Origin: Bacteroidota bacterium
GTDB lineage: Bacteria > Bacteroidota > Ignavibacteria > Ignavibacteriales > Ignavibacteriaceae
NCBI GenBank assembly: GCA_021824145.1
Contig: JAKALM010000001.1
Location: forward strand, 434,001 to 498,000
Reading direction: 5' to 3'
DNA: 64,000 nt
The stretch's first letter is position 1, and every line of letters starts with the position of its first letter. Shown here piece after piece: positions 35,846 to 39,460 of the stretch. The notes under the pieces are model-generated. The model was not told the DNA's origin, made no database searches, and was given only the letters and a program-made list of their open reading frames with translations. Made by a program: the position numbers and the translations under genes.

Positions 35846-36307
35846 CTAAACATATAATGCTCTGCCGAAATCTCTTCTGTGCTTTAATGTAAGTTCATTT
35901 TCTTCGCCAAGATATTTGAAGATTGCAATACATGCCTTCCTTGCTCCATCATTGTCGAAGTATCTATCCGCTCTAATTACTTCAATAAATTTGGTTAATG
36001 CCGAATCAAAATTTTGTTTTTGAATTTCGTTGATTGCATCAAGATATAAATTTTTTACAGAACTATTATCTAAATTTTCTGGATTATTTTTTAACGAAAA
36101 AAGATACGCAAATGTTTTTAGTGAATCTATTGACTCCGAGTGCTCTGAGCCTTCTTCAATTTGATCAAGTAACTTTAAACTTTTTTCAAAGTCATCAAAG
36201 AAGATAAGCTTTGCAAGAATTATTTTTGCTTTTTGATTATTTGGTTCATCAACTAAAATATTTTCCAAAACTTTTTCTGCCTGTTTCAACTCGCCGGAAG
36301 AAATCAA
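35846..36307 (-). CDS. TPR half of the split CnoX/YbbN-like protein
   Basis: This 153-residue frame begins with a TTG at 36307 (MISSGELKQAEKVLENILV). Helical repeats follow: NNQKAKIILAKLIFF, FEKSLKLLDQI and IQKQNFDSALTKFIEVI, ending in a segment with ARKACIAIFKYLGEEN. If the TAG is a true stop and reinitiation is inefficient, this part is not made. The Trx domain could then act alone, as in ordinary TrxA. It is co-linear with the thioredoxin part and lacks its own Shine-Dalgarno site. Confidence 0.5.
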   Translation of the reverse strand: MISSGELKQAEKVLENILVDEPNNQKAKIILAKLIFFDDFEKSLKLLDQIEEGSEHSESIDSLKTFAYLFSLKNNPENLDNSSVKNLYLDAINEIQKQNFDSALTKFIEVIRADRYFDNDGARKACIAIFKYLGEENELTLKHRRDFGRALYV

Positions 36308-36361
36308 ATCCTCAACAGTAGCAATCTTTTTGTCATTCTTTCCTGGTATTGCTTTTTTTAG

Positions 36362-36661
36362 CTAGTCTCGAATTTTACTTTCAGGCAAAGCGCCGACAAA
36401 TTCATTTACAACTTTTCCGCCAGAAAATAATTTCACATTTGGAATACTGCGAATTCCATATTTCTCTGCCAATTCTGGATGTCCATCAGAGTTGATTTTT
36501 ACTAAATGCCAGCTTGTTTGAAATTCTTTTGCTAATTTTTCTAGCACTGGACTCAAAGCTCTGCATGGCCCGCACCACTCAGCCCAGAAATCTACAAGAA
36601 CAGGAATATCAAAACTTTTTTTTATTACATCTTCTTCAAAGTTATTCGTATTGAAATCCAT
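36362..36661 (-). CDS. Thioredoxin domain protein (N-terminal half of the split gene)
   Basis: This 99-residue thioredoxin fold has active site WCGPC at residues 29-33 in the order expected of TrxA: FDIPVLVDFWAEWCGPC, LEKLAKEFQ, VKINSDGHPELAEKYGIRSIPNVKLF (the cis-proline in SIPN). It ends after FVGALPESKIRD with TAG. A stand-alone thioredoxin usually has a few more residues after this point, so the ending is slightly short. It may function as a reductase on its own. Confidence 0.75.
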   Translation of the reverse strand: MDFNTNNFEEDVIKKSFDIPVLVDFWAEWCGPCRALSPVLEKLAKEFQTSWHLVKINSDGHPELAEKYGIRSIPNVKLFSGGKVVNEFVGALPESKIRD

Positions 36662-36748: not shown

Positions 36749-37630
36749 TTATTGTCGATCCAATATTTCTTTTATTTTTTTAATATGATCTGGCCCAGTG
36801 CCACAACAGCCGCCGATTATATTAACCCCTGCTTTTATTAATTCCTCAGCCTTAGGTGCAATTACTTCTGGTGTTTCAGTATAAACAGACATTCCATGTA
36901 TCCATTCAGGAATTCCAGCGTTGGCTTGTGCTATTATTGGTTTTTTAGTTAAAGGCCGTAGTTCTTTAATAATTGCAATCATCTCATCAAAGCCTTTACC
37001 GCAATTTGCGCCAATAACATCAGCGCCGGCTTCTGCGTATTTTTCAGCAGCTGTCTTTACATCAATTCCCCACATTGTTCTTAATCCAGCATTGCCTAAT
37101 TCAAAAGTCATGCTTGCAACTACTGGAAGTTTAGTATTTTCTTTTGCTGCACGTACAGCAGTTGTTGCTTCTTCAGGAGCCATCATTGTTTCAATATAAA
37201 GTACATCAACTCCGCCTTCTTCAAGTGCACTTGCCTGTTCAGCAAAAATATCATATGCTTCGTTTTCTGGGAGTGTGCCAAGTGGTTCAAGAAGTTCTCC
37301 TGTCGGTCCCATTGAGCCAGCAACAAATTTTCCATCAGGACAGACTGATTTAGCCAACTGTGCGGCAGCAATACAAAATTCTTTTACGCGATTTTCAAAA
37401 CCATGAAGCTTTAACCTTGCCCGGTTAGCTCCAAATGTATTTGTTTCAACAATATCTGAACCGGCAAGAAAATAATCTCTATGAATATCTTTTATTATTT
37501 CGGGATGTGAAATATTAAATTCTTCCGGGCAAGCTCCTGAAGGCAGGCCGCGCTTTTGAAGTTCAGTTCCCATTGCACCGTCGCTTAGAAGAATTTTCCC
37601 GGAGTTTAAAGCTTCAAGAAATTTATTCAA
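36749..37630 (-). CDS. Homocysteine S-methyltransferase family protein
   Basis: This 293-residue protein carries the zinc-dependent homocysteine-methylating domain found in MetH module 1, BHMT and MmuM. It has LLSDGAMGTELQKRG, ETNTFGANRARLKLHG, AGSMGPTGELLEPLG, VDVLYIETMM and the zinc ligands C210 (IGANCGKG) and C275-C276 (GGCCGTGPDHI). The start is a TTG at 37630: AAGGAG at 37638-37643 is 7 bp upstream, and this start overlaps the stop of the corrinoid-protein gene by 8 bp. An upstream TTG at 37657 has no such site. It is third in the corrinoid operon and would act as the methyl acceptor enzyme. Confidence 0.88.
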   Translation of the reverse strand: MNKFLEALNSGKILLSDGAMGTELQKRGLPSGACPEEFNISHPEIIKDIHRDYFLAGSDIVETNTFGANRARLKLHGFENRVKEFCIAAAQLAKSVCPDGKFVAGSMGPTGELLEPLGTLPENEAYDIFAEQASALEEGGVDVLYIETMMAPEEATTAVRAAKENTKLPVVASMTFELGNAGLRTMWGIDVKTAAEKYAEAGADVIGANCGKGFDEMIAIIKELRPLTKKPIIAQANAGIPEWIHGMSVYTETPEVIAPKAEELIKAGVNIIGGCCGTGPDHIKKIKEILDRQ

Positions 37631-38282
37631 TTTTATTCTCCTTAACTTCAATTCCAATTAATTGTTTTGCTAATTTAACTGCATCAGTTGCATTCTTTGC
37701 ATAGCCATCAGCTCCAACTTCTGAAGCAAAAGCTTTTGAAATTGGTGCACCACCAACCATTGTTTTTACTAAAATCCCTTCCTCTTTAATTTTATCAATT
37801 ACAACTTTCATATAACCCATTGTTGTTGTAAGTAATGCTGACATTCCAACTATATCTGCATTCTCTTTTTTAATTGCATCTATAAATTTTTCAACCTTTG
37901 TATCAATACCAAGATCGATTACTGTAAATCCGCTGCTTCTCAACATCATGGAAACAATATTTTTTCCGATGTCATGAATATCACCTTTAACGGTTCCCAT
38001 AATAATTGTGCCGCTTCCTTTTAAATCGGCTTTTGAAAGTAATGGCTCCAAAATAGCTAAAGATGATTTCATCGCTCTTGCAGAAATTAGAACCTGAGGT
38101 ACAAAAATTATATTATCCCGAAATCTAATTCCAACAACATCCATCCCGGGAAGCAATCCAAAATCGAGAATGGTTTTTGCATCTATGCCTAATTCTAAAA
38201 GCTTGTTGGTCAGTTCAATGCTTTTATCTTTGTTGCCATCGATTACTGCTTGAGATAACTCTTTGAATATTTCTTCAGTCAT
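37623..38282 (-). CDS. Corrinoid (cobalamin-binding) methyltransfer protein
   Basis: This 219-residue protein is a MetH/MtaC-like methyl carrier. A cap/helical domain covers residues 1-90. The B12-binding Rossmann domain has DIHDIGKNIV, where D101-x-H103-xx-G106 supplies the cobalt-ligand histidine, then VDLGIDTKVE-type strands, GMSALLTTTMGYMK and GGAPIS. It is the middle of three overlapping genes; its start codon overlaps the last base of the upstream stop codon. It should shuttle a methyl group from the UroD-type protein to the homocysteine methyltransferase. Reductive activation would require a separate enzyme that is not seen here. Confidence 0.92.
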   Translation of the reverse strand: MTEEIFKELSQAVIDGNKDKSIELTNKLLELGIDAKTILDFGLLPGMDVVGIRFRDNIIFVPQVLISARAMKSSLAILEPLLSKADLKGSGTIIMGTVKGDIHDIGKNIVSMMLRSSGFTVIDLGIDTKVEKFIDAIKKENADIVGMSALLTTTMGYMKVVIDKIKEEGILVKTMVGGAPISKAFASEVGADGYAKNATDAVKLAKQLIGIEVKENKIE

Positions 38283-39460
38283 TATTCGTATTTCCCATAT
38301 TTTTCAGTAAGCTCAATTAAAATTTCAATATTTCTTGGAGGTGTATAAGGAGCGATTGAACAAGCTGAACTTAGAATATAACCTCCATGCGGTTTTCCGG
38401 TTTTTAATCTCCATTCAATGTCTTTGCGAACTTTTTCTTCATCTGGTTGAAGTAAAGTATTCACCGGATCAATGTTTCCTTTTATAAAAACTTTTCCGTC
38501 TAGAATTTTTTTTGCTTCTTCAAGCTCAACTGTTCCTAATGGCGGAGGATCAAGTGTATCAATTCCGTTAGTACCAGTTTCCATCATCAAATCAAGCCTG
38601 TCGCCAATGCTTCCGCAAGTGTGTGTATAAACCGGTATGTTAAAATCTTTTTGAATTTCTTCGATGATTTTTCTTTCATAAGGTAAAACAAATTCTTGGT
38701 AATGCTCTCTCGAAATTAATCCAGCTCCAGCAAATGCTGAAGAAATTAATATTGCATCAACACCGCACTTTGCCTGTTCTTTACCAAGTGCGATAGCTCC
38801 CAATGTTAATCTTTCTAAACATGCTTTTGATTTTACCGGATCGTCCATTATTGCCATTAATGCATATTCATAATTTAAAAGCTCAAGAAATTGAGACCAC
38901 GGAGAAAATACTTCTGAGTGAACAGAAAATTCGCCTTTAGATCTTTCTAAAACTTTTTTGATAGTATCATGATGGTAATCTGGGAAAAAATTATCAAAAG
39001 GACGAACTTCATTTTCAAATCCCCATGTAAAAGGATAAGTAATATCAGTTAAATCCCACGGCTCAACATAAAAAAGTTCATCGGGATTTATTTGATCAAA
39101 ACTAGGAAAATAACGGCTGCCATCATTCTGATAATAATGCGGGTTATCATCTTTTGGTACAACTGTGTAGTTTCCATTTTTCCAACGGACAATTGATCCA
39201 TCATCATTCTTTTCAATTTTAGCAATATAATTTTTATAGTCCGGATCTCTTCCGGGAAGATTTACAAGTACGCCGTCGAAAGAATATTTATTTTTCAGTC
39301 TAACTAATGCTTCAGCAAATCCTTCAGAAGTAAACCAAATATCAATGGGATCGATTCCCGAATGCAAAAAATAATGGCCGATTGAAAGCTGGCACATTAA
39401 CGGAACTCGGTCTGCAGTTTGCAAATGCATTGCTTTATTCATTCTTTCTCGTGAGTTCAT
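38282..39460 (-). CDS. Uroporphyrinogen-decarboxylase-family corrinoid methyltransferase
   Basis: This 392-residue UroD-fold protein resembles MtaA/CmuA-type methyltransferases rather than HemE. It carries a zinc-binding pattern H280-T-C282 (VYTHTCGSIG) and C367 (SSACSIAPYTPPRN), the H-x-C-xn-C of MtaA-like enzymes. The N terminus RERMNKAMHLQTADRVPL is typical of the family. It is the first gene of the operon, overlaps the corrinoid gene by one base, and is preceded by a 308-bp divergent region. It probably moves a methyl group between an unknown methyl donor and the corrinoid protein. The donor (for example a methoxylated or methylthio compound) is not deducible. Confidence 0.88.
   Translation of the reverse strand: MNSRERMNKAMHLQTADRVPLMCQLSIGHYFLHSGIDPIDIWFTSEGFAEALVRLKNKYSFDGVLVNLPGRDPDYKNYIAKIEKNDDGSIVRWKNGNYTVVPKDDNPHYYQNDGSRYFPSFDQINPDELFYVEPWDLTDITYPFTWGFENEVRPFDNFFPDYHHDTIKKVLERSKGEFSVHSEVFSPWSQFLELLNYEYALMAIMDDPVKSKACLERLTLGAIALGKEQAKCGVDAILISSAFAGAGLISREHYQEFVLPYERKIIEEIQKDFNIPVYTHTCGSIGDRLDLMMETGTNGIDTLDPPPLGTVELEEAKKILDGKVFIKGNIDPVNTLLQPDEEKVRKDIEWRLKTGKPHGGYILSSACSIAPYTPPRNIEILIELTEKYGKYE

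Follow-up and report, generated by a model that had tools for sequence, protein, structure and literature searches.

A three-gene corrinoid methyl-transfer operon in an Ignavibacteriaceae genome: a possible accessory, folate-independent route to methionine

The locus described here raises the question of where a UroD-fold methyltransferase, a corrinoid protein, and a homocysteine S-methyltransferase (HcyMT) encoded as one compact set would take a methyl group from, and to what they would pass it on. We give an even chance to the reading that the operon is an accessory, folate-independent B12 methyl-transfer route making methionine beside MetH, with a donor that is probably a methylthio or methylseleno compound. 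The three genes lie within the window, by which we mean the whole stretch of 64,000 nucleotides that was analyzed:

38282-39460, minus strand: UroD-fold methyltransferase, proposed donor:corrinoid methyltransferase (MT1); 392 aa; PF01208; predicted zinc ligands H280/C282/C367
37623-38282, minus strand: corrinoid (B12) carrier protein; 219 aa; PF02607 and PF02310; D101-x-H103-xx-G
36749-37630, minus strand: homocysteine S-methyltransferase, proposed acceptor module; PF02574; predicted zinc Cys 210/275/276, counted from TTG 37630

Gene layout, protein families, and conserved residues

An earlier, sequence-only reading of this DNA had described three genes on one strand with overlaps of 1 bp and 8 bp, and key residues in all three proteins; the open reading frames were found on the minus strand in this arrangement, and each residue was located at its named position. 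The UroD and corrinoid genes share a single base pair (taATGa), and the corrinoid and HcyMT genes share 8 bp given an HcyMT start at TTG 37630, upstream of which lies a GGAG site. Because the longest HcyMT reading frame begins at 37657 (302-aa frame), with TTG 37630 nine codons further in, the size of this second overlap depends on the start chosen. Profile E-values of the three proteins span 1e-21 to 1e-75, well away from chance. Relative to L045, a metagenome assembly that is the nearest named relative (its UroD protein is 88% identical to that of the window), the dN/dS ratios of the three genes are 0.062, 0.049, and 0.053, which indicates that all three proteins are under selection.

The UroD-type protein matches PF01208 (URO-D) with 139.9 bits (cut-off 23.9), and its AF2 model has a pLDDT of 93.2. 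The top VIA-align match to this model is 4ay7, a Methanosarcina mazei methyltransferase (Z 33.9, rmsd 2.5, 320 aligned), with MetE, acetophenone carboxylase, and MetH among the lower-scoring matches. By fold, a methyltransferase cannot be told from a decarboxylase here, several true UroDs sharing the Z of 33.9 with 4ay7. The nearest curated families are the methylcobalamin:coenzyme M methyltransferases: all 46 UroD relatives in our alignment (the window plus 45 of 80 named loci) match the MtaA, MtbA, and MtaA/CmuA models at E 0.001 or better, and the window protein reaches none of the NCBIfam cut-offs for these three models (104.7 bits versus 235.4 for MtaA/CmuA, TIGR01463). Identity as HemE was considered and rejected, TIGR01464 giving 65.6 bits versus a cut-off of 302.95; a separate HemE-like gene is present on contig C22 of the genome (PF01208, 465.1 bits).

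H280, C282, and C367 were confirmed in the UroD-type protein, and a profile alignment places them on the HxC and the C of 4ay7, the MtaA positions. The three residues are unchanged in 46 of 46 aligned relatives, and His-Cys-Cys is kept in all 16 same-phylum sequences. Within the UroD superfamily, this triad marks S/Se-methyltransferases, with O-demethylases having carboxylates or non-ligands at these positions (Kountz and Balskus, PMC10418091). By its triad, the window protein is a candidate member of the S/Se-methyltransferase class. The O-demethylase class, in which one or both zinc cysteines are replaced (PMC10418091), was rejected on the same 46 sequences. The full triad is absent from five other UroD proteins of these genomes, whose genes lie next to those for corrinoid proteins or HcyMT.

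The corrinoid protein matches PF02607 (75.4 bits, cut-off 23) and PF02310 (97.8 bits, cut-off 32.1), falls just below the cut-off for Pyl-type methyltransferase corrinoid proteins (TIGR02370; 202.5 versus 215.3 bits), and carries D101-x-H103-xx-G, a motif retained in 9 of 9 aligned sequences. HcyMT, scored on its longest frame, is a member of PF02574 (255.3 bits, cut-off 22) and stays under the cut-off for betaine-homocysteine methyltransferase (PRK07534; 280.9 versus 338 bits). Its Cys 219, 284, and 285 in the 302-aa frame, equivalent to the 210, 275, and 276 listed above, are likewise retained in 9 of 9 aligned sequences. The window genome (G000) has a third PF02574 gene, which stands alone on contig C32 (43414-44229; 306 aa), with no corrinoid gene among the adjoining reading frames that were read.

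Rfam scans for riboswitches at the gathering threshold, covering the window together with L010 and seven relatives plus 10 further loci (L034 lay outside these scans), returned tRNAs only. Promoter-like sites occur at the level of chance (18 found versus 16.2 expected), and no common upstream motif is evident in a six-sequence alignment. Just downstream of the operon (35846-36661, minus strand) lies a thioredoxin-TPR (CnoX/YbbN-like) gene with an in-frame TAG at codon 100, where L045 has Trp; the frame is uninterrupted in L045, L046, L058, L059, and L034, and the TAG in the window means either that the gene is disrupted or that the assembly is wrong at this point.

MetH, cobalamin supply, and reactivation in the genome

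The window genome (37 contigs, 3,483,596 bases, 95% complete) encodes a complete MetH on contig C22, with 1236 aa, all five Pfam modules, and 1804.6 bits against TIGR02082 (equivalog cut-off 1010.85). Full-length MetH is present in 9 of 9 genomes examined from the window's order. The operon itself does not qualify as MetH under TIGR02082: it encodes no pterin-binding protein, and the true MetH of the genome lies elsewhere. The sequence-only reading had suggested a search of the genome for methionine synthases, a RACo-type activator, and B12 synthesis genes; metH was found complete, and the MetE-type profile PF01717, the RACo profile PF14574, and CobS gave no match in the window genome. As CobS, the only B12 gene searched, has no match in any of the 13 genomes tested, that of the window included, B12 synthesis looks incomplete and the corrinoid is probably imported. 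The same reading had named, as grounds against itself, a complete metH combined with O-demethylase annotation in relatives, or missing cobalamin pathways; the complete metH and the lack of a CobS match bear these out in part. No relative was seen to be annotated as an O-demethylase, their loci carrying no annotation, and the His-Cys-Cys triad speaks against the O-demethylase class.

No reactivase gene lies beside the operon in the window, as had been read from the sequence. PF14574 covers RACo and, by a Methanosarcina control, apparently RamA as well, and RACo is found in 0 of 9 genomes of the window's order, one of which (G302) is a single contig. Since no activase gene was found in the window genome, its activation cycle is left incomplete; our guess is that Co(II) would be reactivated by the activation domain of MetH itself, acting in trans. 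Across the 41 genomes with a UroD gene, PF02965 has a match in 36 and PF14574 in 21. Selenocysteine was considered from in-frame TGA marks in RACo and MetH genes; for RACo it is unlikely, as the reading frames of the marked genes at L127, L128, and L134 are open over the usual length, and the TGA mark in these three is probably the terminal stop.

Occurrence and gene neighborhoods in relatives

In a survey of 395 genomes of the same phylum, with a threshold of E 1e-20 or better, 16 carry a UroD relative. Reading 15 stretches together with the window (n=16), we found seven loci at which the genes for UroD, the corrinoid protein, and HcyMT follow one another on the same strand. At one further locus (L031, which is also L054), the three genes are interspersed with those for RACo and an activation protein, and at another (L036) HcyMT is about 7 kb from UroD. 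The remaining seven have no gene labeled as corrinoid protein or HcyMT within the stretch, two of them (L030 and L040) being on contigs shorter than 10 kb. At E 1e-40 or better, UroD is present in 10 of 80 genomes of the window's family and in 3 of 13 of its genus. This patchy presence, combined with a complete MetH, suggests an accessory role.

A wider scan of genome contigs gave 302 UroD relatives, of which 80 were kept, with loci of up to 8 kb on each side; they span Ignavibacteria, KSB1, Gemmatimonadota, Acidobacteriota, Planctomycetota, Sumerlaeota, Spirochaetota, Chloroflexota, and others. HcyMT is found at 21 of these loci, a corrinoid protein at 19, RACo (PF14574/PF17651/PF00111) at 16, a Na+:solute symporter at 14, and a stand-alone activation protein (PF02965, with the match confined to the C-terminal portion of the model) at four, while 45 show none of the five, many of them on short contigs. 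Among the 40 loci that extend 4 kb or more in both directions, the counts are 16 for HcyMT, 13 for the corrinoid protein, 11 for RACo, and 20 for none of these three. On the tree, in which rows L101, L114, and L044 have very long branches and are unreliable, the presence of HcyMT is scattered, with 15 changes versus 24 in shuffles.

Several Gemmatimonadota share the gene order symporter, corrinoid, RACo, UroD, HcyMT, the end of the symporter gene overlapping the start of the corrinoid gene in some of them, and KSB1 locus L060 has the order UroD, RACo, activation protein, corrinoid, HcyMT. The PF02965 activation domain is a part of MetH, as its Pfam name indicates. A stand-alone protein of this kind in relatives supports methionine formation, and RACo together with PF02965 is what a methionine-forming corrinoid system would need. 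Symporters beside the relatives fit uptake of a donor from outside. With 5 to 12 SSF matches per genome in eight genomes of 2.0 to 4.1 Mb, each picked for the symporter at its locus, about 0.05 would be expected per 16 kb, versus 14 of 80 loci observed.

Several loci show other combinations. At L071, L076, L035, L037, and L062, a PhyH-type oxygenase gene lies beside or near UroD, in four of the five together with a GATase1-like gene and symporters. In KSB1, L127 and L128 each combine two or three UroD proteins with RACo, an MtaB-type methanol methyltransferase, and a corrinoid protein, next to dehydrogenase and FAH-like genes (these last named by eye). L125 (G228 contig C23, 14000-31000) is a glucuronoxylan-like cluster with GH10, aldose epimerase, UxuA, and FGGY kinase genes, which also holds a different UroD protein, a corrinoid protein, HcyMT, MTHFR, a pterin-binding protein, and RACo; 4-O-methylglucuronate is a candidate substrate for corrinoid-dependent demethylation there. 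In L130 (G416 contig C1, 1053000-1069000), an MttB-type gene is followed directly by those for a MetH-type activation protein, a corrinoid protein, and HcyMT.

Proposed pathway, rival readings, and known systems

In the scheme that we propose, the UroD-type protein would bind a methylated compound, most likely methylthio (or methylseleno), at a presumed zinc site formed by His280, Cys282, and Cys367, and would hand its methyl group to the corrinoid protein in its Co(I) state. Transfer presumably continues in this direction to the PF02574 protein, which would hold homocysteine, the putative acceptor, on its own three-Cys zinc site, take up the methyl group, and release methionine. The route would run alongside normal MetH as an accessory scavenging path. 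If so, scavenged methyl groups would enter the methionine/SAM cycle directly, bypassing folate, in bacteria that also keep MetH, and in sediments and groundwater the supply of B12 would be tied to how methylated sulfur compounds, or else methylated sugars, are reused.

A broader proposal, to which we give somewhat less than an even chance, is that the operon is one of a widespread class of B12-dependent systems, present in many phyla, that form methionine without folate and can exchange their donor subunits, the donor in the window again being probably methylthio. The core of such a class would consist of the corrinoid protein and the homocysteine enzyme, often with RACo and sometimes with a stand-alone MetH-type activation protein. 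Its donor subunits, UroD-type here and MttB-type in G416, would pass scavenged methyl groups directly to methionine; they seem interchangeable because, at L130, the MttB-type gene precedes the same core.

With respect to the donor, the zinc triad and the neighboring genes disagree. The main rival reading, which we consider rather unlikely, is that the methyl group comes from an O-methylated sugar or uronic acid (from methylated glycans, for example), which the UroD-type protein would demethylate, with the sugar passing to central metabolism and the methyl group disposed of as methionine. NagA/NagB-type genes near several UroD relatives point this way, as do GH38 alpha-mannosidase at L054 and L044, GH28 at L071, GH3 at L107, NamZ at L057, sugar-type ABC transport at L052 and L062, mannose-6-phosphate isomerase at L037, and the PhyH oxygenase genes that adjoin UroD in some loci. 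In G228, which has a UroD gene, the corrinoid and HcyMT genes of L125 stand beside the GH10 xylanase, UxuA, and FGGY kinase, but next to the different UroD protein. The different UroD proteins of L125, L127, L128, and L132 lack the full His-Cys-Cys triad, however, whereas the window protein has it, and the window's own neighbors are not sugar genes. Genes of sulfur or selenium metabolism were likewise not recognized beside the operon in the window or in close relatives. We nevertheless favor a sulfur donor over a sugar, because the triad sits in the protein itself and the sugar signals among neighbors come without a background count.

Two further readings concern what the operon is for. The sequence-only reading had likened it to a methionine synthase with the folate domain replaced and the remainder split into subunits. 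As a match of modules this holds up, the UroD-type protein standing in for the pterin module and relatives carrying PF02965 and RACo; as a stand-in for methionine synthase it runs against the complete MetH. That the operon nonetheless serves the cell as its main methionine synthase, or as a back-up, when methyl groups from folate run short seems to us distinctly unlikely: the modules do match those of MetH, relatives have MetH-type activation proteins, and four of the 41 genomes (G397, G400, G404, and G419) have neither a full-length MetH nor a MetE-type gene, but these four are assemblies whose completeness is not established, MetH is complete in the window genome, as it is in all 9 genomes examined from the same order, and few genomes of the family have the UroD gene at all. 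We think it very unlikely that the UroD-type protein is instead an acceptor enzyme, like MtaA with coenzyme M, methylating a thiol from a corrinoid protein charged by another protein. The closeness to methylcobalamin:coenzyme M methyltransferases would suit such a role, as would the ability of the zinc triad to bind thiols (PMC10418091), but the operon would then hold two acceptors and no donor enzyme, and nothing that came up here suggests coenzyme M or a comparable special thiol. Donation by the UroD-type protein, with methionine as the product, remains our preferred reading.

Our literature search, which had most subscription journals outside its reach, found no title or abstract opening that describes UroD, a corrinoid protein, and HcyMT as one system. 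MetH, whole or split into two or three parts (PMC7857596 and PMC12478193), resembles the operon in its homocysteine module, corrinoid module, and zinc thiolate chemistry, and relatives of the operon also have a MetH-type activation protein; the operon differs in having separate subunits and a UroD-type protein instead of a pterin-binding module. The folate-independent methionine synthases of Price et al. (PMC7857596) are of the MetE type, a protein family other than the operon's. PMC7448270, which concerns an MtmB-like system, was considered as a precedent and set aside.

Type 1 mlp clusters share with the operon His-Cys-Cys UroD-type proteins, a corrinoid protein, and the lack of a folate methyltransferase, but their definition calls for at least two Mlps plus a Ram activase and does not include a homocysteine enzyme (PMC10418091); by the same definition, the operon has a single UroD-type protein and HcyMT, with no Ram/RACo in the window or the genome. 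The acetogen O-demethylase and chloromethane systems MtvB, VdmB, and CdmBCA likewise combine a UroD-fold donor methyltransferase, a corrinoid protein, and a third, acceptor protein, but their acceptor is tetrahydrofolate and CdmB is without zinc (PMC13222342), whereas the acceptor protein of the operon is of the PF02574 type. The nearest published logic is that of the glycine betaine system MtgBCDE in marine bacteria, where a corrinoid protein is common to betaine demethylation and methionine synthesis (PMC12478193). MtgBCDE has separate corrinoid and homocysteine subunits and a dedicated donor methyltransferase, as in the operon; its donor enzyme is, however, MttB-type (PF06253), with the pterin protein MtgD in between, whereas the operon has a UroD-type donor enzyme and no pterin protein was seen in it.
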